Assembly (NCBI GenBank): GCA_037481695.1
Contig: JBBFLE010000003.1
Span: 124,001 to 188,000, forward strand
Length of the DNA stretch: 64,000 nucleotides
Origin: a bacterium
Lineage (GTDB): Bacteria > Desulfobacterota > Desulfocorpusculales > Desulfocorpusculum
Direction of reading: 5' to 3'
Of the stretch, positions 5,308-22,938 are shown in pieces. Each line of letters starts with the position of its first letter. The first letter of the stretch is position 1. The notes beneath the pieces were generated by a model. It searched no databases and was not told the DNA's origin. It was given only the letters and a program-made list of their open reading frames with translations. A program made the translations under genes and the position numbers.

Positions 5308-5563
5308 CTTTAGACCTCCTTTTTCAGGCAAGCAGGACTCTATTTTCCATTGAGCCTAAAAGGAGTCTACCTTTCTTACACTCCAGGTAAATGGGTAGGT
5401 AACTCCATTTTGGATGGGCATCTCACCCCATAAGCCCCGTGGAAAGACCCCACATAAAACCCCAAAGGAGCTGGCAAGACCCCATTTTTTGGGGGGAGGC
5501 CCCCATTGTGACCTTGTCATGTGTGGGCTAAGCTTCAAGAAAATTTGAGAGGTGGAAATAAAC

Positions 5564-6070
5564 ATGAGAAAGATGGTTACTGTGCTGGCGGCCTTGGCGA
5601 TTTTTGTGGGGGTTGCAAACCTCATGGCCCAGCAGGACGTGGAGCAGCACCAATCCTGCCCCTTTTGCGGCATGGACAGGGCCAAATTCGCCCACAGCCG
5701 CATGCTGGTCAAGTATGAGGATGGGAGCTCTGTGGGTACCTGCAGCATTCATTGCATGGCAGTGGAGCTATCCTTGAGCCTGGACAAGACACCCCTGGAG
5801 ATCCTCGTGGGGGACTACGAGACAAAAGAACTCATAGATGCTGAAAAAGCCTTTTGGGTCATGGGAGGGGATGTGCAAGGTGTCATGACCCAGAGGGCCA
5901 AATGGGCCTTCAAAGAAAAGCAAAGGGCTGAGGCCTTCATAAAGGCTCATGGCGGAGAACTGGTGGATTTGGACCGGGTCATGCGCGCCTCTTACGAAGA
6001 CATGTACGAGGACACCAAGAAGATACGCGAGAGACGAAAGGCCAAGCGCACCCAGCACAAGTCCCACTGA
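5564..6070 (+). CDS. NosL-like periplasmic copper-binding protein
   Basis: The family takes its name from NosL, a Cu(I)-binding accessory of nitrous oxide reductase; homologues are widespread without nosZ. The 168-residue protein starts at ATG 5564, behind GAGAGGTGG; the in-frame GTG 12 bases upstream is less well placed. It begins with a signal peptide ending near ANLMAQ. The CPFCGM motif with the downstream phrase DYETKELIDAEKAFWVMGGDV is characteristic of NosL. A second Cys pair with His (CSIHC) follows the first motif. The C-terminus is basic. It stands next to the CusBA/multicopper-oxidase region, so delivery or buffering of copper for that region is a reasonable inference. No nosZ is visible. 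Confidence 0.75.
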   Translation: MRKMVTVLAALAIFVGVANLMAQQDVEQHQSCPFCGMDRAKFAHSRMLVKYEDGSSVGTCSIHCMAVELSLSLDKTPLEILVGDYETKELIDAEKAFWVMGGDVQGVMTQRAKWAFKEKQRAEAFIKAHGGELVDLDRVMRASYEDMYEDTKKIRERRKAKRTQHKSH

Positions 6071-6860: not shown

Positions 6861-9800
6861 CTATTCCTTAACAATGCGGGCCAGTTTTTTCTCTTGGAAC
6901 CAGCAGTAAACCACGGGCACTATCAACATGGTAATCATCTCCACAGCCAGCCCCCCCACAGAAGGTATGGCCATGGGAAGTATCAGGTCCGCGCCTCTTC
7001 CCTTGGAGCTCAGCACCGGTAGAAGGGCCAACAATGTGGTGGCCATGGTCATCATGCAGGGCCTTATTCTGCGTCTGCCGGCTTCCAGCACCGCCTCCCT
7101 GACCTGGGGGATGCTGGTAGGACGTCTTGCTTCAAAGCTCTTGGTCAGGTACGTACCCATGACCACCCCGTCGTCCGAGGATACGCCGAACAATGCTATG
7201 AAACCAACCCATACAGCCACACTCAGATTCAGGGGGTGAACCTGGAAGATTTCCCTCATGGAGTTCCCCAGGAAGCTGAAATCCACAAACCAGGGCTGTG
7301 AATATAGCCAGATGAGAACAAACGCCCCGGCCCAGTTCACGAAGATGCAACAAAAAACAAGACTGCTCATGGCCAGGGATGAGAACTGAAGCTGCAGTAT
7401 CACCAGGATCACCATCAAGGCCAAAGGCACGACCAAAAGGAGTGTGTTCCAGGCCCTCACCTGGTTTTCATAGTTTCCGGTCATGGAAATGCTGACCCCT
7501 GTTGGAAGTACCAGGCCTCCGGTGTCCATCCTCCACCTGAGATAGTCCTGCACATGCTGGAACACGTCACCCTCTGCGAATCCGGCCTTTCTATCAAATA
7601 GCAGGTACCCCACCAGGAATGTATCTTCGCTTCGGATCATTTGAGGTCCAGGAGAGAATCTGATCTCGGCCATCTGGCCCAAAGGAACCTGGGCTCCCCC
7701 CAAGGTAGGGACCAGCACCCTCCCCAAGGCATCAGGATCATCCCTGAGTTCCCTCATGTATCTCAACCTGACAGGGTATCTTTCCCTCCCCTCCACCGTG
7801 CTTGTGACCTTGCGTCCTCCCACGGCCACATCCAGCACATCCAGGAGCTGCTGGAGGTCCACCCCGTACTGGGCCATGGCAGCACGATCGGGCCTGACTT
7901 CCAGATAGGGCACCCCCATGATGCGATCCGCTATCACGGAGCGGGAATCTACGGAGGGGACCTCCCTGACGGCCTGCTCCAATAGCCAACAAGCTTGCTC
8001 TATGCTGCCCAAATCCGGACCCTTCACCCTGATGCCCATGGATGCCCTTATGCCGCTTTGTAACATGACCATGCGGGCAGCTATGGGTTGGAGCTTGGGG
8101 GCCATGGTCACCCCAGGTACATCGGCTGCACGCACTATCTCGCCCCAGATGTCTTCGGTGTCTCTTATTCCGGGCCAGAACTGGCGGCCTGGGTTCAGCT
8201 CCGGGTCCAAAGGCGGTCTCCAGAGTCTGAAAGGTTTGCCACCTTTCTCGGCAATTAGATTTCCCCCCTCGTCCCTCACAAACCTTCCTCGCACCAGGTA
8301 GGGCAGGCCATCGGGAGCTGCCAGAGGCCGTCCTTCCAGGTCTCGCACCAGATCCAGTTCTTGCTTTTCATACCTGAAAGTCAAAATGTTCCCCCTGGCG
8401 TCTTTCAAGTGCTGGGGCTTGTACTGGATGAGGGTCTCCACCATGGAAAGAGGAGCCGGATCCAGAGCCGATTCGGCTCTGCCCAGCTTTCCCACCACCA
8501 GATCCACCTCTGGTATGGCCTTTATGCTGCGGTCCTGTAATTGGAGGATCTCCAAGAGTTCTGCCAGGGATGCGTGGGGCATGGCCGTAGGCATGTACAA
8601 AAATGAGCCTTCATCCAAAAAAGGCATGAATTCCTTGCCCACACCCGGGAATAGATGGGCCAAATAAGAAACAGGTCCCGTGCGCATGAGCCAAGATGGA
8701 ATCCACCCGAAAAGCCTTGGAAAACCCAGCCAGATGGTCAGACCCAGAATCACTATTGCCCCTGGAATACACAAGAAAGCAGCCTTGTGCTGCAGACACC
8801 AACTCAGAATCCAGGGGTACCACCTCTGGACCGAAACCACCAAGGCCAAGGCCCCACCCAAGAAGGCCAGAGCAAAAAGCAGGTTTCTCCCTATGCCTCC
8901 TTCTGGTCCCAAAGGAAGCCAATGAGAAGAAAGGAGCAACAGAAAACCTATGGCCAGGGCCCATCTGGCAGCCTGAGAACTCCAGGCCCTGGCCCCCCTG
9001 GAAACTCTCCCTTGAACAAGACCCCATGCCCCCAGAAGGACCATGGCCCCTCCCAGCCACGGGCTCCAAAGCAGAGCCACCAAGACTCCCATCCACGCAA
9101 GCCCCTCCAGGAAAAGATTGCTCTTGGCCCATCTCTCCAGCCTCTGGTGCAGAAGCAGCTTTGCTCCCACTGGGATGACGGTCACTGCCACCAGCATGGA
9201 TGCGGCCAGAACCATGGTCTTGGTCATGGCCAGGGGACGAAACAGTTTCCCCTCGGGCCCTGTCAGGGCAAAGATGGGCAGAAAGCTGACGATGGTGGCT
9301 GCCATGGCTGTCACCACCGCCCCTCCCACCTCTGAGGCTGCCTTCATGATGAGAGCCTTTCGGTCTTCTCCAGGCCCAGACGCCTCCAGATGGCGCAAGA
9401 TGTTTTCCGTGACTATGATCCCCATGTCCCCCAAGGTTCCTATGGCTATGGCTATGCCACTCAGGGCCACTATGTTGGCCTCAACCCCCAAAAGCTTCAT
9501 ACCCACAAAGCAAAGCAGCACTGCCAGAGGCAACACCGAGCAAACAAGCAGCGCACTTCTTAGGTGTCCCACCAGTGCCAGGATCACCACCATTACCACC
9601 AGGGCTTGCTGGAGCAAGGCATCATGGAGGGTCCAAAGGGTCTCCTTTATGAGATCTGTGCGATCATAAAAAGGCACTATTCTGACCTGGCTTAAGGTGC
9701 CGTCTGAAAGAGTCTTTCGTGGGAGAGACGGGGATATCTCCTCTATCTTGAGCCTCAGGTTTTTTATTACCCTGAGGGGGTTCTCACCGTGGCGCACCAC

Positions 9801-10739
9801 CACAACCCCGCCCACGACCTCAGCCCCTTCTTTGTCCAAAATACCCGAACGGGCGGCCGGCCCCAGAGTGACCTGACCCACATGACGCACCAGCAGAGGC
9901 ACCCCTTCATTTACCCTAATCAAGGCCTCGGCCAGCTCTCTTGGATCCTTCACAAACCCGAGCCCCCTCACCACGTAATCCACACGGTTCACCTCCATGG
10001 TGCGGGCCCCTATTTCCTGATTGGCCCTCTGAAGTGCAGCCACAACTTCCTCCAGGCTCACACCCCGGGCCCTCAGCAGAGCTGGATCCAAATCCACCTG
10101 GTATTCCTTAACAAAGCCTCCCACCGAGGCCACCTCGCTGACTCCCTCAGCAGACAGCAGTGAAAACCTCACCTGCCAGTCCTGGATGGAACGAAGTTCC
10201 TGAAGGTCCCAGCCCCCTGTTGGACGCCCTCCAGGGTCTCTACCCTCCAGGGTGTACCAAAAAACCTGCCCTAGAGCAGTGGCATCAGGCCCCAGGGTGG
10301 GCTGAACACCTTGGGGCAGTGTACCTGGAGCAAGACTGTTGAGCTTTTCCAAGACGCGGCTCCGGCACCAGTAGAAGTCGGCTCCGTCCTCGAAGATGAC
10401 ATAAACCATGGAAAAACCGAACATGGATGTACATCGAATGCTCTTGACCCTGGGCATGCCCAGGAGGGCGGATGTGAGGGGATATGAGACCTGGTTCTCC
10501 ACATCTTGGGGAGAGCGGCCCGGCCATTCGGTGAAAATGATCTGTTGATTCTCCCCCACATCAGGGATGGCATCCACAGGCACAGGAAAACGGGGCAGCC
10601 CGGCCAGCTCCCAGTCAAAGGGGGCGAAGCTCACCCCGAGCCCACAGGCCATTACCAGCACGGCCAGCACCACCCCCGGTCTTTCCAGGCACAGCCTGAT
10701 CAGACTCTGAATGGGCGAGCGTCCTGCGAGGTTCTCCAT
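6861..10739 (-). CDS. cusA: CusA/CzcA-type heavy-metal efflux RND pump
   Basis: This is the inner-membrane proton-driven pump of a tripartite heavy-metal (probably Cu/Ag) exporter. The N-terminal region has the heavy-metal RND signatures ENQVSYPLTSALLG and SMVYVIFEDGADFYW, then the TM4 proton-relay segment IAIGTLGDMGIIVTEN and the later PFLDEGSFLYMPTAMP. At 1292 residues it is about 250 longer than E. coli CusA. Extra material includes a block of about four added hydrophobic segments at residues 530-650, between the first transmembrane bundle and the usual TM7, and an enlarged second periplasmic part. The ATG at 10739 has GAGG nine bases upstream; a GTG directly before it is the alternative. 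It follows cusB by 11 bases. No outer-membrane CusC/TolC gene is present nearby. Confidence 0.93.
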   Translation of the reverse strand: MENLAGRSPIQSLIRLCLERPGVVLAVLVMACGLGVSFAPFDWELAGLPRFPVPVDAIPDVGENQQIIFTEWPGRSPQDVENQVSYPLTSALLGMPRVKSIRCTSMFGFSMVYVIFEDGADFYWCRSRVLEKLNSLAPGTLPQGVQPTLGPDATALGQVFWYTLEGRDPGGRPTGGWDLQELRSIQDWQVRFSLLSAEGVSEVASVGGFVKEYQVDLDPALLRARGVSLEEVVAALQRANQEIGARTMEVNRVDYVVRGLGFVKDPRELAEALIRVNEGVPLLVRHVGQVTLGPAARSGILDKEGAEVVGGVVVVRHGENPLRVIKNLRLKIEEISPSLPRKTLSDGTLSQVRIVPFYDRTDLIKETLWTLHDALLQQALVVMVVILALVGHLRSALLVCSVLPLAVLLCFVGMKLLGVEANIVALSGIAIAIGTLGDMGIIVTENILRHLEASGPGEDRKALIMKAASEVGGAVVTAMAATIVSFLPIFALTGPEGKLFRPLAMTKTMVLAASMLVAVTVIPVGAKLLLHQRLERWAKSNLFLEGLAWMGVLVALLWSPWLGGAMVLLGAWGLVQGRVSRGARAWSSQAARWALAIGFLLLLSSHWLPLGPEGGIGRNLLFALAFLGGALALVVSVQRWYPWILSWCLQHKAAFLCIPGAIVILGLTIWLGFPRLFGWIPSWLMRTGPVSYLAHLFPGVGKEFMPFLDEGSFLYMPTAMPHASLAELLEILQLQDRSIKAIPEVDLVVGKLGRAESALDPAPLSMVETLIQYKPQHLKDARGNILTFRYEKQELDLVRDLEGRPLAAPDGLPYLVRGRFVRDEGGNLIAEKGGKPFRLWRPPLDPELNPGRQFWPGIRDTEDIWGEIVRAADVPGVTMAPKLQPIAARMVMLQSGIRASMGIRVKGPDLGSIEQACWLLEQAVREVPSVDSRSVIADRIMGVPYLEVRPDRAAMAQYGVDLQQLLDVLDVAVGGRKVTSTVEGRERYPVRLRYMRELRDDPDALGRVLVPTLGGAQVPLGQMAEIRFSPGPQMIRSEDTFLVGYLLFDRKAGFAEGDVFQHVQDYLRWRMDTGGLVLPTGVSISMTGNYENQVRAWNTLLLVVPLALMVILVILQLQFSSLAMSSLVFCCIFVNWAGAFVLIWLYSQPWFVDFSFLGNSMREIFQVHPLNLSVAVWVGFIALFGVSSDDGVVMGTYLTKSFEARRPTSIPQVREAVLEAGRRRIRPCMMTMATTLLALLPVLSSKGRGADLILPMAIPSVGGLAVEMITMLIVPVVYCWFQEKKLARIVKE

Positions 10740-10750
10740 CACCTTTCACC

Positions 10751-12145
10751 TCAGCTATCTGGCTTCCTAGGAGATAGGTTCATCATGCTGGGCTTAGCCA
10801 GGATCTGGGAAGCACTGTCTATTTTGAAGGTGCCATTGGTAACTACCAGCTCCCCCTCCTCAAGCCCCTCTCTGACCACCACGTAATCACGCCCCTTGGG
10901 GCCCAAAACCACCTCCCTGGCCTCGTATGTCCATTCCTGGCCCGGCACGGCCACATAAACCAGTGCCCTTTTTCCGGTGATCAAGGCCGCAGAGGAAGGA
11001 ATGGCCAAGGGGGGCCGCCTTGAATCCTTTGCCAGGCTGGATCCGGTGGGATCCAAGTCCAATTCCGAGAACAAGGTGGCTCTGGCTATCATCTCGGGAC
11101 GAAGCCTGCCCGTGTCAGGCACTATGACCCCCACCGTGGTCGTACGGGTCTTGGGATTGAATATGGGATCTATGTAGGTTATCCGACCTCGAAACTTCTC
11201 CCCTGGAAAAGCCTCCACCTGGAACTCCACCTCCTGGCCGTTTCTTATCCAGGGCAGGTCCGCCTCGTAAGCATCCAGCCTCAACCATATGTACTTAGGA
11301 TCTGCTATGACCATGAGAATTGTTCCTGTGTTCACGTAAAGCCCTTCGGTGACATTCTGACGGATCACCACTCCGGCTCTGGGCGCGGTCAAGGTGGCTA
11401 TGCCTGTGGGCTCAGACCTCTGCTGCAATTCGTCTATGTCCCGTTTGGAGAGCCCCAGGATCCTGAGCTTGTGGCGGATGGCCGCCATCTTCCTGAGAGC
11501 CTCCTGTCTGGTTGCTTCATCTGTGGTCCCCCTGGCCTCCACCTCCCCCTTCCGGGCCACATGGGGAGTGCCCTCCCTGAAGGCCAGAAGACCCGGGATC
11601 ACCTGGGCCGCCTCGAAAAGCTGCTGTTCTGTGGCATAAAGCTCCGAGGAATAGAAATCCAGTAGAGGCTGTCCCCACCGCACCGAGACCCCAGCCCTCT
11701 CAACAAAGACCCTGTTGACCACACCTGGCATGTAAGCGCTCACATAGCTAAGGTGTGCCGGATCATAATCTATCTGACCAAAAAGGCGCAGCTCCTGCCT
11801 GACCGGCCTTCTCTCAACTGCTGTCACCTGGACCTGTGCCAGTCTGGCCGCTTCTCTGGAAAGCCTTACCGTACCCCTTGCCCCCTCCTCTCCTTGCGTT
11901 GCGCCAGAGACCCTCACCAGATCCATGCCGCACACCGGGCACTGTCCCGCCTTTTGGGTGGGAGCTATGTGCATCATGGGGCAGACGTAGAGCCCTTCTT
12001 CCCCGGGATGGGAATTCTGATGGGAGGAAGGCAGCTCCTTGGAGAGCAAAGCAGCCCCTTTTTCAGCAGCACGCAGTCCATAACCAGCTGCAAAAGCCAG
12101 GCACAGGGCAATGACCCATCTCAGGGATTTTCTCCGAAGGTTCAT
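10751..12145 (-). CDS. cusB: CusB-type periplasmic adaptor with heavy-metal-binding domain
   Basis: This is the membrane-fusion subunit linking the CusA pump to an outer-membrane channel. The start is ATG at 12145 with AGGAGG eight bases upstream. The 464-residue protein has an N-terminal membrane anchor (residues 9-26) and a small heavy-metal-binding domain with YVCPMMH and CPVCGMDL (Cys at about 55, 69 and 72). The adaptor body follows, with lipoyl/barrel-sandwich halves (RAGVVIRQNVTEG and TYIDPIFNPKTRTT regions) and a C-terminal membrane-proximal domain ending in GTFKIDSASQILAKPSMM. It is the usual partner of cusA, which follows 11 bases downstream. Confidence 0.92.
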   Translation of the reverse strand: MNLRRKSLRWVIALCLAFAAGYGLRAAEKGAALLSKELPSSHQNSHPGEEGLYVCPMMHIAPTQKAGQCPVCGMDLVRVSGATQGEEGARGTVRLSREAARLAQVQVTAVERRPVRQELRLFGQIDYDPAHLSYVSAYMPGVVNRVFVERAGVSVRWGQPLLDFYSSELYATEQQLFEAAQVIPGLLAFREGTPHVARKGEVEARGTTDEATRQEALRKMAAIRHKLRILGLSKRDIDELQQRSEPTGIATLTAPRAGVVIRQNVTEGLYVNTGTILMVIADPKYIWLRLDAYEADLPWIRNGQEVEFQVEAFPGEKFRGRITYIDPIFNPKTRTTTVGVIVPDTGRLRPEMIARATLFSELDLDPTGSSLAKDSRRPPLAIPSSAALITGKRALVYVAVPGQEWTYEAREVVLGPKGRDYVVVREGLEEGELVVTNGTFKIDSASQILAKPSMMNLSPRKPDS

Positions 12146-12167
12146 GGAATTGCACCTCCTGTTTTGC

Positions 12168-13166
12168 TCAGGAGCCCAGCTTGAAATCTGAAAATACCAT
12201 AGGATAAGAGGACACCATGGCAAAAAACAGATACCCTGCCAGGCTCACGGCAGCAAGCCTTCTTTCAATGATTGCAATCTTATTCTTCAGTGAAGGGGTA
12301 TCTCTGTACTGATCCAAGAGCCCCACCCCTAAACCGCAGATACCTGCCATGAGAAGGGGAATGTAAAGCAGGTAGCCTATGTAATTATATTCAGCCTGAA
12401 GAAGGCAAAAAGGACAGTGGTGGGTGGGCAGCTCATAAAAATAAACGGAGATGTAACTTACTGTCGAAACCAAGGACCAGAACAAGAGCAATCCGCTGAT
12501 AAAGGAAAAAAGCTTGGCCCCGGAATCCCTGAATATTACCTGAATGGACACCCTGACCAGGAGAGCCAGCAGAAGGAAAAACACAACCTTGGCCAGCGTG
12601 GGCGCAACACCCCCGAGATCCCCCCCCAGGCCTTGGGCATCAATGCCGAACAGGGCTCCACAGCAGGAGGTGATGAGGTGGGGTTCCATGTTCAGGAAAT
12701 AGGCGGTCTGCAGCAGAGCCTCCCATGTCAGGGTACCTGCTATCCAGCGCAATAGACGGTACTTGGGTACCAGCAGGGGATAGTCGGGAGCAGTTTGATC
12801 CGTGCGGTTGAGTATCAACCAAAGGCCGCAGAGGATGGAGTTGACCAGCTTGAGCAGAAGCACTGGATAGCCAAAAGAGTTCACATTGAGGGTTCCTGCA
12901 GCACACATGGCTCCAACGAAAAGCTCATGGAGCCTGTCCGCGGTGTGAACAAAAAGGAACAGAGAGAGTATCTGGGTGACCATGACAAAGGAAAGCAGGG
13001 TCGAAACCAGATAGGTGCGCCTTTCCAGCCGAAGCTGTAGTTCGCTTCCGCTTTTGAGATCCCAGTGGGCCATTATGTGTGTTCCAAGCCCAGCGGATGC
13101 CAGGGCCGTTGCTGCTGCCAGCAAGGAGCCTCCGGTCAGGGCCAAGACAGCCGCATCCAGGATCAT
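12168..13166 (-). CDS. polytopic membrane protein with CPFC motif, unknown function
   Basis: This 332-residue protein has roughly eight or nine hydrophobic segments. The most distinctive feature is a THHCPFCLL segment at about residues 248-256, at the end of a membrane helix, giving a CxxC pair next to two His. A second pair, CC, lies near residue 168 and a single Cys near 88. Such an arrangement suits a membrane thiol-redox protein (as in VKOR/DsbB-like systems) or Cu(I) binding, but no family was recognised. It overlaps the preceding lipoprotein-like gene by 4 bases and precedes cusB by 22, so it belongs to the copper operon. Confidence 0.7.
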   Translation of the reverse strand: MILDAAVLALTGGSLLAAATALASAGLGTHIMAHWDLKSGSELQLRLERRTYLVSTLLSFVMVTQILSLFLFVHTADRLHELFVGAMCAAGTLNVNSFGYPVLLLKLVNSILCGLWLILNRTDQTAPDYPLLVPKYRLLRWIAGTLTWEALLQTAYFLNMEPHLITSCCGALFGIDAQGLGGDLGGVAPTLAKVVFFLLLALLVRVSIQVIFRDSGAKLFSFISGLLLFWSLVSTVSYISVYFYELPTHHCPFCLLQAEYNYIGYLLYIPLLMAGICGLGVGLLDQYRDTPSLKNKIAIIERRLAAVSLAGYLFFAMVSSYPMVFSDFKLGS

Positions 13167-13612
13167 TTCACCTCCAACCCCTCCATCTTGCAGCCTCCCA
13201 CCTCCAGGCTGACCTTTTGGCCCACACCCACAATACCCCCTGAGTTCCTAAACAGGATGAAATATTCCCGCCCCAGCTCAGGCTTCCCTGCCCTCTGTCT
13301 GAGTCTTCCAAGCTTGCTTTGGGCCACTGTCAAGACCTTGCCCGTGGGCTCATGCACCAGATGGACCCCCACCGAGGGGTCCAAGAGAAAAGAAGCCCCC
13401 TGCGGATCCAGGACCTTGAATCTCAAATCCAGAAATCCTCCCGCTGCCGTAACCCTAATGCTTTGGATCTCAACCCCGCAGCCTCTGGGAAGCATCCCCT
13501 GCTCCCTGCTTCCTTCAAGGGCTGCGCACCCCCAAGCCAGTGCCAAGAAGATCATTGAAAAACACCCTAGCTTCCCTGGAATCTTTTGCCTTATCCCCGA
13601 GGGCTTTCCCAT
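13163..13612 (-). CDS. small exported (probably lipo-) protein of the copper operon
   Basis: The ATG at 13612 is chosen because AGGAGG lies nine bases upstream. The 149-residue product has a signal region whose end LALAWGCAAL resembles a lipobox, with Cys as the first mature residue. The mature part reads as a small beta-rich domain (LDLRFKVLDPQGASFLLDPS, EYFILFRNSGGIVGVG). It contains two further Cys residues, one near the lipid-anchor end and one in VGGCKMEG. No family was recognised. The stop overlaps the start of the membrane protein gene by 4 bases, suggesting translational coupling and a shared task. Confidence 0.65.
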   Translation of the reverse strand: MGKPSGIRQKIPGKLGCFSMIFLALAWGCAALEGSREQGMLPRGCGVEIQSIRVTAAGGFLDLRFKVLDPQGASFLLDPSVGVHLVHEPTGKVLTVAQSKLGRLRQRAGKPELGREYFILFRNSGGIVGVGQKVSLEVGGCKMEGLEVK

Positions 13613-13722
13613 TGCCACTGCCTCCTTTTGAAAAAGCATACTCTTCAAAGCGGCTTCTGCCCATAAAAAAAGAGGAGGGTACCTTGCCCTCCCCTCTTAA
13701 AGCTTGACGCTTCTGATGAGGC

Positions 13723-15357
13723 TCAGGGAGCCTTGTAAGGCACTGGCTTGGTATCCGAGCCTCCACCCGTGGAGACCACGGTGACCGTACCAGGCTTGCT
13801 GGCCACTGGACGGAACTTGCCCAGATAATCGTTCATGGCCGGCCTGTAAACCAAATCCCCGAATCCCACGGCAGTAAGGGTCACACTGCCTGCTGATGCA
13901 GTGCTTCGCGCAAATACCTTGAGGGTTCTCCTCAACCTGTTGTATCTGGTCTTGTATATGGTAACCGTCTCCGGCGGACCCACCTGGAGCTGGACAGATG
14001 CAGCAGGGCCCCAGCCCGTGGCATCCTGAGCTCTGGCCCAGACAGTGTGCAGCCCATTGGCCAGGCCCGAGACGTCCACCGTGGCCTGTATGAGTTCCTC
14101 TGCCGAATCAAAGGCCCCGTCTACCGCATTCATGGGGGTTGCATTGCCGGGCCCCGGATCCGTTGAGCCTATCCAGTACTCGGCCCCCTGGATGGGGGAG
14201 CAACCTGTTGCCACATCCGTGGCCAACCCGGACAAATTCACAGTAGAGGCTCCGGCCGTAGGATTGGGGGAGGCCGACAGGCCGGTGATCACCGGTGGTT
14301 GGGAATCCACACCAAGCCCACCCACCTGTAGTTTTGCTATGAGACCACCAGGGGTTGGTGCCCCTGCATTGGTCAGATGGACTCTTCCGTCATAAAAGGT
14401 TATGGAACCCTCTGCCGAGGGGTTCAGCCAAGCATCCACGGAGCGGCCTGCTGCCAGCTCCACTGAGTACTGCTCTTTGGGGAAGGGGTAGAGGTTTCCG
14501 TCCTCGGCTCTCAAGGTCAGGTAAGGCCCCAGAAAAACAGGCACAAAAGTCTGGTAACCTGCATTCAGGAACCTGAGAAGCACATCTTCTCCTGGGAGAA
14601 TCTCAGTGCAAGCGTTTATTCTTTCCTGAGCTGGATCAGGCCAGGCTTTACCATTTATGAGGAAGTACTTGGCCTTGTAGTCCCGAGTGTTCGATACAGC
14701 CTTGCCAGGGCCGAACTGGCCTGAGGCAATGGCACGGTTCATGGCCGGATCCAAGGCGCTGTACACCAGCAGGATCTCTCTGTCAAAGGTGGTGTCCGAA
14801 TCCGCGTAGGCTTGATCCTCATCAAAGTTTTTCACCACCGCCCCGTACAACCCCATCTGGACCTGTTGAGCAGGGTTGGTACCGCTCTGGTACAGGAAGG
14901 CCCCTTCCTTGAAGCTGCCCCAGGTGTAGGTGCCTGTCTGTCCAGGGGCTACCTCATGCACAAAGGAACGAACCCTTGCAGTGTAGTTACCGGCCGGCCT
15001 GCTTGGGCTCCAGGTGGTGGTCTCATGGGGCCAGTCGCTCCAGACTGGTCCTGTGTTATTGTCCGGAAGTTTTTGCCCTGGAATCACTAAGGACACAGGG
15101 ACTCCCAGAAGGTTTGTAAGATTAATGGTAAGCCCTTCACCGGGAGGAACCACCAGCCTGGGACCAGGCACTGTGACAGGTCCATTTCCCAGGGCAAAGC
15201 CCCAAACCGGCACCGTTTCCCCGTCAGGAAGGGTCATGGAGCCCACCTTGGCGGTAAGGGAATACTCCACTGCCCCTGCCCCTCCCACCCAGGCCAGAAG
15301 GAGGCCCAGGGCCAGGCACGCCCTCCCAAGCAGCATCGAGATGGTCCTGGATCGCAT
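13723..15357 (-). CDS. multicopper-oxidase-like exported protein without copper ligands (MCO-C)
   Basis: This 544-residue exported protein has two cupredoxin domains recognisably related to its two upstream neighbours (VPGPRLVVPPGEGLTINLTN, QVQMGLYGAVV, FLINGKAWPDP, EILPGEDVLLRFLNAG). At the places where copper His/Cys residues belong it has none: the HxH positions read VIPGQ and FVPVF, and the HSH/HCH position reads YQSGT. It is followed by an Ig-like domain (about 370-470) and a basic C-terminal domain. The ATG at 15357 has AAGGAGG eight bases upstream. It is probably a structural or assembly partner of the other two, not an oxidase itself. Confidence 0.8.
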   Translation of the reverse strand: MRSRTISMLLGRACLALGLLLAWVGGAGAVEYSLTAKVGSMTLPDGETVPVWGFALGNGPVTVPGPRLVVPPGEGLTINLTNLLGVPVSLVIPGQKLPDNNTGPVWSDWPHETTTWSPSRPAGNYTARVRSFVHEVAPGQTGTYTWGSFKEGAFLYQSGTNPAQQVQMGLYGAVVKNFDEDQAYADSDTTFDREILLVYSALDPAMNRAIASGQFGPGKAVSNTRDYKAKYFLINGKAWPDPAQERINACTEILPGEDVLLRFLNAGYQTFVPVFLGPYLTLRAEDGNLYPFPKEQYSVELAAGRSVDAWLNPSAEGSITFYDGRVHLTNAGAPTPGGLIAKLQVGGLGVDSQPPVITGLSASPNPTAGASTVNLSGLATDVATGCSPIQGAEYWIGSTDPGPGNATPMNAVDGAFDSAEELIQATVDVSGLANGLHTVWARAQDATGWGPAASVQLQVGPPETVTIYKTRYNRLRRTLKVFARSTASAGSVTLTAVGFGDLVYRPAMNDYLGKFRPVASKPGTVTVVSTGGGSDTKPVPYKAP

Positions 15358-15374
15358 TTCCCAAGCCTCCTTTC

Positions 15375-16721
15375 TCACTCCGCAGGTAATGGCACATTCC
15401 ATGGGACCACACCAAGCATGGTGATGAGCCCCCCTGGAAAGATGTTGTTGTTGCTAAGCTCTTTCTCCGTGTGTGAGTGCCACATGTAGAAGAAGCCTCC
15501 CCCCACGTTGAGCCCCGAGTGCTCTGGGGGCAGGGAACCTTCTCCCCCCATAAAGGGGCTCCCGCTATAAAACTGCCCGAATACCACGTCATCTCTGGAC
15601 GGCAGGATCACAGGAAAGTTCACACCATGATCCGCCAGGTACTCGTAGGGTGCCAAATCATCCCCAGGGGCGTGACCATATATGTCCCATCCCATGAGGG
15701 CCCCTGTCCATTGAAATATGGCATCCACTGTCTGGCCCGGGTTGACCACCACCGTATAACGCTCAAAGGAAAGGTCCGGGCCGTTTCCTCCCCCGCTGCT
15801 AAGAAGCCTTCCGTCTCTGGCAATGACCCTCACGTGGTTTCCGTGAAAATGAAGGGGATGGGGATCTCTTCCCAATGTCACGACTCTCAGAAGCAAGCGC
15901 TCCCCGGGATGCATTAGTGCCAGGGCATTGTAAGGTTGTGTGGGCAGCCAGGGCACCTGTGCATTGGCCAGTGTGTCTGGAAAATTCCGGCCATTCAAAA
16001 ACCAAACTGTTTGGAAAAACTCCGTTGTGTCCACCTTGTCCAGCTTACCCAGCTCCACCAGCCTGTGCACCCTGGGATCCATGTCCGTCATGAGAAGCAA
16101 GAACTCTCTGTCATAAGCCGTGTCCTCATGCTCATAGGCGAACTTGGTTCCCACACAGAGGCTTGAGTCTGGCCCCGTGTTATGACCATCGGGCACTGGA
16201 GGGCACTCGGAGTTGGGAGAAGGGCCAGAGGGCCTCACTATGATCACTCCCAGAAGCCCCATCTCCACCTGAAGATCCGGCCGGGTGCCGCTGTGGTACA
16301 CATAGGTTCCCGGGCTTGCAGCGGTGAAGGTATAGGTGACCGTGGTGGTGCCATCAGGCGGGGCCTCCCTGGTCAGGACCCCTTCAACACCCCCCGAACT
16401 ACTAACTTCATGGCCCGGAAAAACTATGGAAACGTTTCCCGCAGAAGCTGGAAGTGAATTCTTGAGGGTCACGGTGACCGTGTCCCCCTGGTTCAAGATC
16501 AGTGTAGGGCCTGGATACTGCATCCGGGCTCCGCTGCCTGGGGCATAGCCCCACATCAGCATGGAATCTCCGTCCCCCAGGGTAATCCTGTCCTGCTTGG
16601 CCACAAGCTCGAAGCTGGTGTCCTGGATCCCCAGGATCTTGGCCCAAGCCCCTGGTGCCCACAAGACGGCCCAGGCTGCCACCAGCACCAGAAGCATCCT
16701 CATCGGTTTCCTCTCTCCCAT
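15375..16721 (-). CDS. multicopper-oxidase-like exported protein lacking the type 1 Cys (MCO-B)
   Basis: This exported protein of 448 residues has two cupredoxin domains. Domain 2 keeps HPLHFHG (residues 288-294) and WHSH (414-417), which correspond to trinuclear-centre His pairs. The position that would be the type 1 Cys in HCH is Ser, and no His/Met follows. In domain 1 the first His pair is lost (SIVFPGHE) and YHSGT keeps one His. On its own it therefore lacks the electron-accepting type 1 copper. The ATG at 16721 has AAGGAGG six bases upstream; longer in-frame starts have none. It lies 17 bases before MCO-C and 42 after MCO-A. Confidence 0.85.
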   Translation of the reverse strand: MGERKPMRMLLVLVAAWAVLWAPGAWAKILGIQDTSFELVAKQDRITLGDGDSMLMWGYAPGSGARMQYPGPTLILNQGDTVTVTLKNSLPASAGNVSIVFPGHEVSSSGGVEGVLTREAPPDGTTTVTYTFTAASPGTYVYHSGTRPDLQVEMGLLGVIIVRPSGPSPNSECPPVPDGHNTGPDSSLCVGTKFAYEHEDTAYDREFLLLMTDMDPRVHRLVELGKLDKVDTTEFFQTVWFLNGRNFPDTLANAQVPWLPTQPYNALALMHPGERLLLRVVTLGRDPHPLHFHGNHVRVIARDGRLLSSGGGNGPDLSFERYTVVVNPGQTVDAIFQWTGALMGWDIYGHAPGDDLAPYEYLADHGVNFPVILPSRDDVVFGQFYSGSPFMGGEGSLPPEHSGLNVGGGFFYMWHSHTEKELSNNNIFPGGLITMLGVVPWNVPLPAE

Positions 16722-16763
16722 CTCTGGCCTCCTTGCATCAGCCTTCCCCATGGTTCAGACCCC

Positions 16764-17981
16764 TCATCCTGAAGCAGGGCAGATCACGATCTCGGTCATC
16801 ATGCCGCCCCGCTCCTCTGGGCCGTTTATGAGGTCATCCAGGTTTGTGGTGTAGAAGAAATAGGTGCCGGGACTCACATCCGAGGTATCTATGATCACGT
16901 CTGCAGCCTGGCCTCCACCTATGGTCAGGGAGCTGGTTTCATAGAAAAGGTCACGGCTTGCGTTCCTGAGCAGTTTGGCATCCAGCCCCACAATCCTCAT
17001 GGGAAGACCCAAGGCCCTCACGGTGAACAGATGCGTGGTGCTTATGTTGTGAATCCTCAGAAGTATCCTCTCCCCCTGGTTGGCCTGGATCCTGGAGTCC
17101 ATTGGCTGGGAAAGGTGATAGTTGTTCTCTGGGCTGGCTCCCAAAGGATTGGGATTGATGGAGTCAGGGTAGCCCCTTCCATTTATGAAGTGGTAGTCGT
17201 CGTCGAGTTCCGCGAAGGGCAGATTCTGAATGGCTATGTGCTGCTGGTGGAACCTAGAGTCAAAGCCTGCCAGCTGCAGGGCCTTGCTCACATGGTAACC
17301 TGTGGATCCATCCCCGTCGTTGTATGCAAAACCTACGAAAGGCGGATCCCCCGAGTTCTTCAGAGCAGTGTTCTGGTCTTGTCTTGGCAGAACATAGATA
17401 TGGGCTATCATGCCCATCTGCATGTGTTCCACCACCTCCACGTGGCAATGATAAAAGTAAGTGCCCTCTTTGCCTTGGGTGGAGTAGTAGTAGGGGAAGG
17501 TGGCCCCGATTCTCACCGTGGGGGCGCTTTCCGGAAGCCCGTCAAAGATGGATCCCGAGTTAGGTATGCCGTGCCAGTGCACAGAGTGGGTATCGAAAAG
17601 ATCAGGTCTGTTGATCATTCCCACGTTGGTCAGGTTCAGGTAAAGCTCCTGGCCTTCCCTGAGAACAATGGTGGGCCCAGGAACCTCAGCCACCACCTGC
17701 CTCTGGGCAAATACCTGATCGGGTGGAACCGTCTCGGGCACCTCCGAAAAACCGAAGGTATAGAGCACCGTCCCGTCGGCCATGGTGGCAAAACCATCAC
17801 CTGCGGTGATGTGCTTGCACACTATGTCATTGGCAGGGTTGCCATCTCCGTCCGCATCCACTCCGTCTGTGTCCTCAGGGCACTGAACCATCAGGTTAAG
17901 CTGCGCCTGGGCAGGCCAGGCAGCGGCAAAGATCCCCGTGAGGAGAAAAGCCGCTATCCCCAGTGCACTTCTTGGCTTCAT
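16764..17981 (-). CDS. multicopper-oxidase-like exported protein with an intact type 1 site (MCO-A)
   Basis: This exported 405-residue protein has a signal peptide ending near PAQAQ. Domain 1 has HSVHWHG (132-138) and YHCHVEVVEHMQMGM (177-191). These give the type 1 set (H132, C179, H186, M191) and four trinuclear-centre His. Domain 2 has lost the matching motifs (ISTTHLFTV and TYFFYTTN), so the protein alone carries only half of a trinuclear centre. An Asp-rich stretch near the N-terminus (DTDGVDADGDGNPAND) looks like a calcium-binding loop. It is the second gene of the operon, after the giant beta-helix gene. Confidence 0.87.
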   Translation of the reverse strand: MKPRSALGIAAFLLTGIFAAAWPAQAQLNLMVQCPEDTDGVDADGDGNPANDIVCKHITAGDGFATMADGTVLYTFGFSEVPETVPPDQVFAQRQVVAEVPGPTIVLREGQELYLNLTNVGMINRPDLFDTHSVHWHGIPNSGSIFDGLPESAPTVRIGATFPYYYSTQGKEGTYFYHCHVEVVEHMQMGMIAHIYVLPRQDQNTALKNSGDPPFVGFAYNDGDGSTGYHVSKALQLAGFDSRFHQQHIAIQNLPFAELDDDYHFINGRGYPDSINPNPLGASPENNYHLSQPMDSRIQANQGERILLRIHNISTTHLFTVRALGLPMRIVGLDAKLLRNASRDLFYETSSLTIGGGQAADVIIDTSDVSPGTYFFYTTNLDDLINGPEERGGMMTEIVICPASG

Positions 17982-18045: not shown

Positions 18046-21000
18046 TCACGGATTGAATTGATCTGCCCCGGCGTCCAGAGGGGCGCTCCTGGGCCTGGTC
18101 TGACCGTCAAAATCGCTTCCTAGCTCTGTAAAATCTGGCGGTACAAAAGCAGCCTGTCCCACGCCATTGGCAGCACTCAGATGGTAATCCCCTGTCTGTT
18201 TGAGAGGCCTGAACACCACGCTGACAAAATTTCCTCCTTCTCCGCCGGCCCCTGCTGCAAAGAGCTCGTTGAAGTAAGGAGAGACCAGAGAAGGTGTCCC
18301 ACCTGTCAGGATGCAGTTTTGGCATGTAAGGGAGCCTGCTGTGCCTATCACCCCCAGATCCGAATATGAGGGATTGGAGGGATCAGGCAAGAGCCCGCCC
18401 AGGCCTCCGTTGGCAGAGCCGTCCCAGTAGAAGGAACGGTTCTGGAAAACTATGGAATCATGCATAAGCGGATCCGAAAACCCTGGGGAACCCAGCACGC
18501 CTGCCAGGGCTGCGCTGTGAGCCCTGGAGGCCACACCAGCCCCAGGCTGCGGGGTCGTAAGGTTGGGGTTCAGAGGATCCAAGAATGCAGCCCTGTTGGT
18601 GGCAGTGCTGTCATTGTGGGCGATGGTGTTATTGATGAGCCTTACCTTTATGGCATCTGCCAGGGACACGCCTCCTCCTGTGAGCTGGGCCACGTTGTTC
18701 ACTATAATGTTGTTGAATACGTTCACCCAGTACCATGCATCCGGGTTTGCGGGGTTTGCAGCCACATCCTGGCCGTTTACCTGGGCCAGGGCTATCCCTG
18801 CCCCGTCATGGCTGGCTGCATTACCCTGGATCAGATTTCCATTGATGGTCACAGAACCAGCTCCAGGGCTCAGTGCATTTCCTGCCACAGGATCCTCTCC
18901 TGCCACCAGCACTCCTCCTCCCTGGCCTCCCACGGTGCCCCTTATGGGCTTGTCGCCTGTGCTCACCTCATTGAAGATTATGGTGTTACGCTCTATGCGG
19001 CCACCGGGGCTCAAACCCACATGGGCCACTCCTGCTCCTTGCAAGCCGCTGAAATTGCCGCATATGAAGTTCTCCTCCACGGTGTAGTTGCCAGAGCCTG
19101 TGAAAAGGGCCAGACCACCGCCGCCATTGACCGAACCGTTTTGGTTGAGGTGGTTGTGGCTGATGATGAGGTTAATGTTGCTGGCATCTGCCAGGTCCCC
19201 GGTTCCAGGATCCACTGTGGAGAGCCACCCCACCCTTATGCCTCCGGCGAAATTGCCTGAGTTGGTGGCAATGCGGTTGTTGCTTATCTGGAGGCCGTCT
19301 GTGTAGCCGCTCACAAAGATTCCGCCCCCCACCAGGGATTGGGTTATGGTGAAGCCGTCTATGCGCCCACCAGTGAATGAGCCGTCGTTTTTGCCCAGTA
19401 CCGTGACACCCGCCCCCCTGTCCAGGAGAAAGTCGGTCCTCTGGCCTGGCACTAGACTCACCAGACCAAGACTCACCAGCTCATCCATCTTGGCCAGCCA
19501 GGCAGGCTCGTTGTCGGGCATGAACTGCAAGCCGTTTATCACCGTGGAGCCCTCTCCTGAGCCCTGCAGGGCCACAGGCTTCCACATGATCACATTCTCG
19601 GTATAAAGCCCTGGAGCAACCAGCACCAGGTCGCCTGGGTTGGCCGCATCCACAGCCCCTTGGATGGTGGCATGATCTCCAGGAACTCTCCGGATGCTCT
19701 GGCCAGGCAGGAGCCCCACTGTGAGGGTTAGCCCCACCTGGGAGCTAAGCCCGTTGTCACCCCTTTGGATGAGGAGCTGGTTGGGCCCAGAAGGTGCGCT
19801 GGCTGGAATCCTGGCCACAATTCGCTTGGCATTCCAGCGGATTATCTGCAGATCCACCCCTCCCAGAGTCACCTTGCCTCTTCTTGTACCAAAACCGAAA
19901 TCCCTGATTATGGTGGGCGGGTTTGTGGGCCCTGGCATGAGACTCGGATTGTAATCGGGGTTCTGCACAGTGACCGGCCCCACCGCATCTATCCTGATCC
20001 TGGCTCCTGCACCTGCTGCAAAGGCCCCTCCCCTTACCTGTTTTATCCGGGGTGTACCATTGGGCAGCTCACAGTCCAGCCTGTTCACAAAGGCGCCGGT
20101 GAAGGCACCTGTGGGGAGAAGAGGGGTGTCCAGATTTGTGGTTACACCCGGCCATGCATCAAAGGTGTAGCAGACCTTCCCATAAGACGGATTCACAAAG
20201 GGATCGGGTCTTGCCAGATCATCCCCAGGGTCATTCAGGCAGACCTGGACCATGCTGGGGGAGACCCCAGTGGGGATGGGAGCATTCATGGTGTAGGTGC
20301 CGGGCACCACCACATGGTACCCGCCCCACTGGTCCGAGTAGGTCTTGGTGAGAAACCTTCCGGCCCAGTCCCTTATTACAACAGGAATCCAGGCAGGAGA
20401 AAGCTTTTCTGCGAAATTGGGGTCATTGGGATTGAAGGTATTGGTCAGGTCATTGGTGATCATGCCGTGGAACTTGGCTGCCCTAGGCACATATGTGAAA
20501 AGGAAGAAGTCGGCCGCTGCGTTTCTGCCCGGCACCACATCCACAAGCTTCCTGTTGCAAAGCGGCCTGTCTGTATTGGCAATTTCAGAGCGTACAGCCA
20601 CTCCAGGAAAAAGGCTCAGCTCAGCTGGGACCCTGCGCAGAGGCCCCACACACGGAGGCAGCAAGGCCTTGGTGGAGGGCTTGTACCTGTCCCCGAAATC
20701 CACGTTCTTGTCCTCTTCCTTGGTCAGCTCAAACCCTTTGGGTGCGTCCACCTCCACAACCCATTGGCCTGTTGTCAGCGGTACTGGAGATTCGCCTGCC
20801 ACCACAGGCACTGGGTTTCCCTCAGAATCCAGCAGGGGATTTCCATTGGAATCCCTGCGAATACCCCCTGGGTAGAACTCTGTGAAAGCATAACCCCCGT
20901 CAAAGACCCCTGGCCTCACCTGGTTCCAAGTCCGCAGGAACTCGGCACAAGGATCTATGGCCCCTCCGAAGAGATCCTGAGGCGGGCTGGGATGCACACA

Positions 21001-22938
21001 CCCCTCTGGGATGTTCTTGTCCCAGCTGTCCGTAAGAGTGGTGTTCACGAGGGTCAGGGCTGTGGGCATCCCATCGGGGCCCACAGAGTCCACCCTGTAG
21101 AGGTTTACCCTCACATCCGGGATACCCGGCTCCCATGGGTCTCCAACACTTTCTCTGGGATCGTCGAAGGCCCGTGTGGTGTCATAAAAGACTATTCCTG
21201 AAATGCCACCGTTTTCATCACCCACATAGTCTCTTTTTCCCCAGTCCATTCTGTGGTTCTGATCAGCATAAACGATTAGGGCCTGGGTGATCACTTCCCC
21301 GGCATCTGTGCGGGAAAGATTGTTACCCGTATGCGGATTCACCTGGGCCTGGGGCTGAGGATTGCGCACGTTTTCCGATGGCATGTCCCACCCGGAATCC
21401 GCCGGAATCTCCCCTCCATCGTCCACAACCACCGTGAGACCAGTGGCCTTGTATCTTAGAAAATCCACCTCTGCCACGATCCATCGGAACCAGGGGAAGA
21501 TCTCCTTGAGTTCATAGCTGCCGTCTAAGCCTGTTGTGCTAGACTGGTAGATTCTTCCGTCCCTGAATCGCAGGTTTACTAGCTGATCCAAGACACCCTC
21601 TTCACCAGGATCCGGGAACCCATCCTCGTCTTCATCGTGAAAGATTTTTCCCTGGAGCCTTCCGAACCAGGCATTTACAAGCACATCCCCCATGTCCACA
21701 AGACCCCCGCTATCAGGCACTATCACGGTCTGGAAGCCGAAGATCTGGTCTATGGGAGTGTCCCATACCACCAGTTGGTAGGTTCCTGGAGGCACGTTGG
21801 CTATGGAAAACTCTCCTGTTTCAGGGTTGGCAGGGGCTGCATAAACACCTCTTCCTGCCAGGCCGCCCTCGAGGATATTCAGTCCCACCCAGGCCTCTGG
21901 CACAGGCGGACCTACGTTCAGATTGGCCGCAGGAGGCCTGGATTGATGCACGTTTCTTATGCTACCTGTGACCGTGCCCGTGGTTCCCCCTGGATTGGGG
22001 ATGGATGCCAGCTCATCAAAGGGCTGGTGCACAAAACCTATGAAGATGTGCCAGAAGGCCTGGCCGAACTCCACCAGGGCAGGAGGCTCGTCTGAACGCA
22101 CCCAGGCGTCCACCCCGGGAGTACCCTCAATGGTGGAGGTCTGAGTCCACACATTGGGGTCCGGAAAATCCAAAGGGCTTCCCTCCACCATCACGGTGGT
22201 GGGCCTCGGAACCGCACGGATGCCGTATTTGCCGGGAGCCAGGAACTTGATCACAGCTTCCCCGTTGGAGTCTGAATATATGCCGTTTCCCACCTCATCC
22301 ACCATGGGATTCCCATCTGCATCCAGCAGGTACTCCCCTGTAACAGGATCCCTTTGGTATGTTGTGCCCAGGGGATTGCCAAAGGCATCGAAGTAGACCT
22401 GCCCCAGCTGGTCGAATACCAAAATATGAAATCCGGGGATACCAGCCTCCTGCGCATCAGGGGCATTGTTGATGGGCCTGATGTCATGGAAGACCTTCAC
22501 CGTTATCTGTGCCGTGGGCAGGGGATGCTTTTGAACGGTCAGGGTCACCTTGTTGGTCCCTGGCACTCTCACAGCGGTGCCTGCCATGGAATAGCCTCCA
22601 TCTGGCAGCACAGACACGAAGTATCTCTTGCCCCTAGGCACACTGATGGAGGCTGAGCTTCCGCCTGTATGGCCGGCTTTGACCACCGGAGAATGGCTCC
22701 TGTAAACACTCAGCCGGACCGTCTCCTGCGGAGGCTGGTACACGCCCGGGCTTATGTCCCGGCTTGTGTCCTCTTCCACCAGCCAGCGGAAACCCTTGAC
22801 TGGATTGCCATCCTGATCCACCACCTTGACTTTGAAGGCCAAAGCCTGGGATGCAGCTAAGCTGCCCCCCAGAATCACCATGATCATGAGGAGCCTGCGA
22901 AGGATTCGCATAGGGCTTGGACCTGCTGGCTGGCGCAT
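18046..22938 (-). CDS. giant secreted protein: SdrD/carboxypeptidase-like repeats, TIG domain, beta-helix
   Basis: This 1630-residue exported protein starts at ATG 22938 with AGGAGGT seven bases upstream. The N-terminus is a signal sequence ending near QALAF. A series of Ig-like, prealbumin-type modules follows, including SdrD B-like units (GKIFHDEDEDGFPDPGEEG near 430; a second near 580). A central Cys-containing region spans about 760-950 and an IPT/TIG domain about 1010-1075. A right-handed parallel beta-helix starts at about 1085 with the NosD/pectate-lyase-like phrase TIQGAVDAANPGDLVLVAPG and runs to the C-terminus. No sorting motif is visible at the end. Such proteins act as adhesins or surface scaffolds. 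It heads the multicopper-oxidase/CusBA operon, 64 bases before MCO-A. Confidence 0.85.
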   Translation of the reverse strand: MRQPAGPSPMRILRRLLMIMVILGGSLAASQALAFKVKVVDQDGNPVKGFRWLVEEDTSRDISPGVYQPPQETVRLSVYRSHSPVVKAGHTGGSSASISVPRGKRYFVSVLPDGGYSMAGTAVRVPGTNKVTLTVQKHPLPTAQITVKVFHDIRPINNAPDAQEAGIPGFHILVFDQLGQVYFDAFGNPLGTTYQRDPVTGEYLLDADGNPMVDEVGNGIYSDSNGEAVIKFLAPGKYGIRAVPRPTTVMVEGSPLDFPDPNVWTQTSTIEGTPGVDAWVRSDEPPALVEFGQAFWHIFIGFVHQPFDELASIPNPGGTTGTVTGSIRNVHQSRPPAANLNVGPPVPEAWVGLNILEGGLAGRGVYAAPANPETGEFSIANVPPGTYQLVVWDTPIDQIFGFQTVIVPDSGGLVDMGDVLVNAWFGRLQGKIFHDEDEDGFPDPGEEGVLDQLVNLRFRDGRIYQSSTTGLDGSYELKEIFPWFRWIVAEVDFLRYKATGLTVVVDDGGEIPADSGWDMPSENVRNPQPQAQVNPHTGNNLSRTDAGEVITQALIVYADQNHRMDWGKRDYVGDENGGISGIVFYDTTRAFDDPRESVGDPWEPGIPDVRVNLYRVDSVGPDGMPTALTLVNTTLTDSWDKNIPEGCVHPSPPQDLFGGAIDPCAEFLRTWNQVRPGVFDGGYAFTEFYPGGIRRDSNGNPLLDSEGNPVPVVAGESPVPLTTGQWVVEVDAPKGFELTKEEDKNVDFGDRYKPSTKALLPPCVGPLRRVPAELSLFPGVAVRSEIANTDRPLCNRKLVDVVPGRNAAADFFLFTYVPRAAKFHGMITNDLTNTFNPNDPNFAEKLSPAWIPVVIRDWAGRFLTKTYSDQWGGYHVVVPGTYTMNAPIPTGVSPSMVQVCLNDPGDDLARPDPFVNPSYGKVCYTFDAWPGVTTNLDTPLLPTGAFTGAFVNRLDCELPNGTPRIKQVRGGAFAAGAGARIRIDAVGPVTVQNPDYNPSLMPGPTNPPTIIRDFGFGTRRGKVTLGGVDLQIIRWNAKRIVARIPASAPSGPNQLLIQRGDNGLSSQVGLTLTVGLLPGQSIRRVPGDHATIQGAVDAANPGDLVLVAPGLYTENVIMWKPVALQGSGEGSTVINGLQFMPDNEPAWLAKMDELVSLGLVSLVPGQRTDFLLDRGAGVTVLGKNDGSFTGGRIDGFTITQSLVGGGIFVSGYTDGLQISNNRIATNSGNFAGGIRVGWLSTVDPGTGDLADASNINLIISHNHLNQNGSVNGGGGLALFTGSGNYTVEENFICGNFSGLQGAGVAHVGLSPGGRIERNTIIFNEVSTGDKPIRGTVGGQGGGVLVAGEDPVAGNALSPGAGSVTINGNLIQGNAASHDGAGIALAQVNGQDVAANPANPDAWYWVNVFNNIIVNNVAQLTGGGVSLADAIKVRLINNTIAHNDSTATNRAAFLDPLNPNLTTPQPGAGVASRAHSAALAGVLGSPGFSDPLMHDSIVFQNRSFYWDGSANGGLGGLLPDPSNPSYSDLGVIGTAGSLTCQNCILTGGTPSLVSPYFNELFAAGAGGEGGNFVSVVFRPLKQTGDYHLSAANGVGQAAFVPPDFTELGSDFDGQTRPRSAPLDAGADQFNP

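Follow-up and report, generated by a model that had tools for sequence, protein, structure and literature searches.

The window, by which we mean the whole stretch of 64,000 nucleotides that was analysed, carries on its reverse strand a run of five genes in the order S, A, B, C and D (Table 1). The products of the three middle genes, MCO-A, MCO-B and MCO-C, contain two cupredoxin domains per chain, as judged from Pfam Cu-oxidase matches and from the strand pattern in the structure models described below. The original prediction had singled out MCO-A and MCO-B as a pair of multicopper-oxidase-like proteins; that pair is real, but the copper-free third subunit C and the fixed S-A-B-C-D operon had been missed.

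Table 1. Genes, copper-ligand motifs and neighbouring features at the locus (window positions).
Feature	Position	Strand	Description
NosL-family protein	5552..6070	+	near operon, context only, outside operon
CusA/CusB-like RND metal efflux genes	6861..12223	-	downstream, context only, outside operon
D	13163..13648	-	~160 aa, small conserved protein; last gene of conserved operon; possible lipoprotein in some members
MCO-C	13723..15402	-	559 aa; overlaps MCO-B 3' end by 28 bases; Pfam Cu-oxidase marginal
MCO-B	15375..16751	-	458 aa; secreted two-cupredoxin protein; likely start M11 at 16721; Pfam Cu-oxidase
MCO-B motif HSH	15471..15479	-	H425 and H427 trinuclear; S426 at type 1 Cys position
MCO-B motif HPLHFHG	15840..15860	-	H298 invariant; H301 and H303 trinuclear
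MCO-A	16764..17981	-	405 aa; secreted two-cupredoxin protein; Pfam Cu-oxidase
MCO-A motif HCHVEVVEHMQMGM	17409..17450	-	H178 and H180 trinuclear; C179, H186 and M191 type 1
MCO-A motif HSVHWHG	17568..17588	-	H132 type 1; H135 and H137 trinuclear
S	18046..22938	-	1630 aa, secreted; SdrD-like B domain, carboxypeptidase-regulatory-like, right-handed beta-helix/NosD-like; first operon gene

Domain 1 of MCO-A holds a complete type 1 set (H132, C179, H186, M191) together with the four His residues of a trinuclear half-site (H135, H137, H178, H180), and its domain 2 is without any ligand motif. This is the arrangement that had been predicted, and all eight ligands were invariant in 96 of 96 homologues. 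MCO-B, by its ligands, holds the other trinuclear half-site: its domain 1 is empty of copper ligands, and domain 2 contains H301, H303, H425 and H427 (numbering of the longest open reading frame). Among 96 homologues of MCO-B, the first two of these residues and H298 were invariant in all 94 that cover the site, and the last two in all 90. Homologue conservation therefore agrees with the prediction that MCO-B has no type 1 Cys and keeps four trinuclear His in domain 2. The numbers given then (291, 293, 415 and 417) pointed to the correct residues but are ten lower than in the longest open reading frame, as they would be with a start at M11; since M11 is invariant in the family, this start is probably right. 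The absence of the type 1 Cys was likewise seen correctly, but not that domain 2 of type C two-domain oxidases normally lacks this residue. Two further features of MCO-B are the invariance of H298, the first His of HPxHxHG, despite the absent type 1 Cys, and that of E429 and E431, at and after the HSH motif (window 15471-15860).

MCO-C consists of two cupredoxin domains without copper ligands, followed by a variable C-terminal region. Across the 81 complete loci, no conserved His-X-His was present at the equivalent positions of MCO-A domain 2, MCO-B domain 1 or either MCO-C domain. Because the two retained half-sites are invariant and the other four half-sites are empty, we conclude that the complementary ligand pattern of A and B is maintained and does not reflect chance. 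No other Cu-oxidase_3 protein able to supply the missing half was found in the whole genome, in which A and B were the only matches. Pseudogenes were ruled out by the invariant ligands. We also ruled out one gene split by a frameshift or an assembly error, since the split is present in all loci and both A and B have an export-signal-like N-terminus in most of them.

We then consider the distribution of the genes. With cut-offs of E < 1e-20 for MCO-A and E < 1e-15 for MCO-B, both proteins were found in the identical 16 of 395 genomes drawn from the phylum, and they were again found in identical genomes (7 of 266) in the class containing a Sulfuricella bin. The original prediction had named A genes lacking B as a finding that would refute it; no such gene turned up in either set or at any A locus examined, and this co-occurrence rules out a chance pairing. 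Moreover, MCO-B was encoded on the same strand as MCO-A and started at most 52 nt downstream of it in all 89 A loci checked. Barring contig ends or gene fusions, S came before A, C after B and D after C, and MCO-C was present wherever the locus extended far enough to include it.

A scan of 84,980 species genomes yielded 296 MCO-A relatives, of which the best 80 were kept. According to their record titles, these best 80 of 296 come from Deltaproteobacteria/Thermodesulfobacteriota, Gammaproteobacteria sensu lato (among them Thiobacillus, Gallionellaceae, Rhodoferax, methanotrophs), Nitrospirae, Acidobacteria, Phycisphaerae, Verrucomicrobia/Lentisphaerae, Hydrogenedentes, Omnitrophota, Bacteroidales, Bdellovibrionales and Myxococcus. 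Single taxon assignments may be wrong, because many of the records are metagenome bins. The S-A-B-C-D operon was present in at least nine phyla, and its hosts comprise iron- and sulfur-oxidising, methanotrophic, sulfate-reducing and metal-resistant bacteria, among them the laboratory strain Cupriavidus metallidurans CH34. Some genomes carry the operon in two or more copies, for example G153 (loci L058 and L067).

Homologues of S stand alongside A and B in nearly all loci (L053-L148), and in a number of them S is joined to a neighbour. It was fused N-terminally to A in at least eight loci (L080, L088, L118, L127, L134, L142, L143 and L144), and L147 contains an S-A fusion as well, interrupted by the contig end. 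In four other loci, namely L126, L145 and those of Cupriavidus metallidurans CH34 (L149) and Paraburkholderia (L150), S was fused to C, giving the order A, B, C-S, D. That S fuses with two different partners suggests that S, A and C are all parts of one assembly. No A-B fusion was seen in the loci examined. The C-S fusion proteins measure about 2,440-2,744 aa, and the S-A fusion at L144:759-9275 runs on for ~700 residues beyond A without leaving the open frame, ahead of B.

Two-domain multicopper oxidases assemble as homotrimers, with each trinuclear centre built where domain 1 of a subunit meets domain 2 of its neighbour; in the type C enzymes the type 1 copper is bound in domain 1 (PMC13151041). 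MCO-A, and only MCO-A, has a type 1 site (His, Cys, His, Met), and as in type C this site lies in domain 1 and domain 2 lacks one. Its domain 1 aligned best with domain 1 of 2zwn and 3g5w, the closest solved relatives. The MCO-B profile aligned through its domain 2 with domain 2 of these same structures at the HxxHxHG and HxH...GG motifs; against 3g5w, HPLHTHG fell on HAIHTHG and WHSHTEKELTNNDIFPGG on IHDHVDTHTTNGDKPDGG. From these alignments it follows that A domain 1 and B domain 2 between them contain the ligand set for a single type C site. The resemblance extends to two cupredoxin domains per chain, the placement of the type 1 site, the motifs and, as predicted from the ligands, trinuclear His drawn from domain 1 of one chain and domain 2 of a neighbouring one. 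However, type C enzymes are homotrimers with three identical sites and with both trinuclear half-sites on each chain, whereas here the half-sites are encoded by different genes, A domain 1 being separate from B domain 2, and the third paralogue is empty, so that only one active site can form. We rate A/B/C as working like a type C two-domain oxidase, with the activity inferred, yet failing its defining feature of two half-sites per chain.

The arrangement of the three proteins was addressed with AlphaFold models. At locus L060, A, B and C share a reading frame and were folded as a linked chain with the stops read through, which is a computational device only. The linked alignment was restricted to linked rows; single A, B or C rows put the B and C rows in the wrong place. 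The resulting A-B-C model (1155 residues) had a mean pLDDT of 85.5 and a pTM of 0.86, with low confidence mainly in the linkers, which are disordered. The linked A-B model of the window had a mean pLDDT of 79.7 and a pTM of 0.83, with low confidence in the loops around the B HSH motif. With pTM values this high, the position of the proteins relative to one another counts as a confident prediction; artificially linked chains do, of course, favour contact.

In a fold search against the PDB, ceruloplasmin, factors V/VIII and MnxG matched the A-B-C model over its full length locally, with a TM of only about 0.2-0.28. The six-domain ring order D1 to D6 thus fails in this model: a ceruloplasmin-like order A, B, C around the ring should give a high TM. 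The only other order of a closed trimer, A to C to B, makes B domain 2 the neighbour of A domain 1. The Thermus three-domain laccase matched the A-B-C model over 776 columns with a TM of 0.68, compared with ~0.47 for contiguous matches to other laccases, and its match to the A-B-only model was weaker (TM 0.50). Such a span and fit would be expected from packing between an earlier domain 1 and a domain 2 that comes later in the chain, in the way that domain 3 of the laccase packs on its domain 1, although this is an inference from scores. The models consequently fit a ring in which A domain 1 and B domain 2 adjoin, a placement read from fold-search scores and not from His distances. Inter-protein covariation (mean-field DCA on 81 paired loci, effective number 76) speaks neither for nor against an interface between A domain 1 and B domain 2, because no domain pair stood out, this one included.

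These models also bear on the place of C. Conceivably, A and B share the trinuclear centre in a heterodimer or other A/B assembly, and C stays outside the ring, for example as an anchor that acts through its variable C-terminal region. The lack of copper ligands in C, its position as the most divergent of the three proteins and the variability of that region are in keeping with such a role. Yet C is never missing from a locus of sufficient length, the A-B-C model scored above the A-B model (albeit for different species and alignments), and the known two-domain oxidases are trimers, and we consider a ring without C unlikely.

We regard it as likely, in the absence of biochemical data, that A, B and C form a heterotrimer with one trinuclear centre common to A domain 1 and B domain 2 and with the type 1 site in A. 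In this heterotrimer, three exported and paralogous two-domain cupredoxin proteins would assemble into a pseudo-hexamer of cupredoxin domains, for which a 1:1:1 stoichiometry is inferred. In the predicted ring A domain 1 would face B domain 2, and their eight His would bind one trinuclear copper cluster, copper loading again being an inference. The type 1 copper would be supplied by A. Electrons from the substrate would enter at this copper and pass through Cys179 to His178/His180, and O2 would presumably be reduced at the A/B interface. C would close the ring without binding copper, and S probably acts as the scaffold that keeps the complex outside the cytoplasm. Heme-copper oxidase-family genes in the genome make the use of O2 plausible. 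That A and B build a single oxidase with the trinuclear centre at their interface was the central proposal of the original prediction; it gains support from the co-occurrence and adjacency of the genes, from the type C alignments and from the linked-chain models, with activity remaining an inference.

NosL and SCO1/SenC were among the neighbours of the operon in several loci, and the window itself has NosL and CusA/CusB-like efflux genes. These neighbours are compatible with copper supply or handling and do not identify the substrate, for which our leading guess, on weak contextual evidence, is a metal ion such as Cu(I) or Fe(II). The same copper genes, and the nature of S as a large surface-type protein, could be taken to mean that the trinuclear centre forms and binds copper in a complex for copper or metal storage or sensing instead of an O2-reducing oxidase. 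We deem this quite improbable, since all residues for the electron path from the type 1 to the trinuclear site are invariant. Hardly credible, finally, is the reading in which A works by itself as a blue copper protein with only a type 1 site, B carries a metal ion of its own, and the trinuclear His serve other metals without a shared centre: the type 1 site of A is indeed complete by itself and the trinuclear centre is without biochemical proof, but four extra His are invariant in each of A and B although neither half alone could form a trinuclear cluster, A and B strictly co-occur side by side, and they align with both halves of type C enzymes.

The proposed A/B/C heterotrimer can be compared with other cupredoxin assemblies. 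Ceruloplasmin and hephaestin have six cupredoxin domains, one trinuclear centre and several degenerate sites (PMC3600357). The proposed A/B/C complex would share these three properties and has a local structural match with them, but theirs is a single chain and here the six domains are spread over three chains from separate genes, and the predicted ring order differs (TM 0.22). The nearest multisubunit case is the manganese oxidase complex MnxGE3F3 of Bacillus sp. PL-12, which is also encoded by an operon and in which MnxG is the sole oxidase chain (PMC5622069). MnxE and MnxF are small unrelated subunits, whereas A/B/C would divide the active site itself among subunits. MCO-B domain 1 resembles in sequence copper-containing nitrite reductase, a two-domain cupredoxin trimer with an inter-subunit copper site; that site is a mononuclear type 2 site, in contrast to the ligands found here, which are those of a trinuclear site. 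To our knowledge, the trinuclear site of known multicopper oxidases comes from a single chain or from identical chains. We found no description of the present system in the literature on heterotrimeric, split, heteromeric, SdrD-linked or NosL-linked multicopper oxidases, in a search that left subscription papers and preprints mostly outside its scope.

If the heterotrimer is confirmed, it would represent a new architecture: a trinuclear site that depends on two different proteins and has been kept across at least nine phyla. For the asymmetry of ceruloplasmin-like enzymes, it was proposed that a two-domain ancestor was triplicated and that sites were then lost (PMC3600357). The S-A-B-C-D operon looks like this stage of triplication and site loss with the genes still separate, and it bears in this way on the origin of asymmetric enzymes. 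We think it probable that A/B/C is a widespread obligate heterotrimeric oxidase, with a site from two gene products and a copper-free third, carried on a large exported scaffold, and that it forms a surviving, un-fused counterpart of the step from homotrimeric two-domain to single-chain six-domain enzymes (ceruloplasmin). When A or B is annotated alone, each will be called a degenerate oxidase and the enzyme will be missed.

Two further proteins were observed around the operon. Between D and the RND genes, the window encodes a 332-aa membrane protein (12168-13166) that contains a CPFC motif, has no Pfam or NCBIfam match and lies near the operon in few relatives. Another protein, also without a Pfam match, combines a c-type haem motif with a periplasmic binding-protein-like region and recurred in 20 of the 89 flanks, for example at L099:19471-21228.
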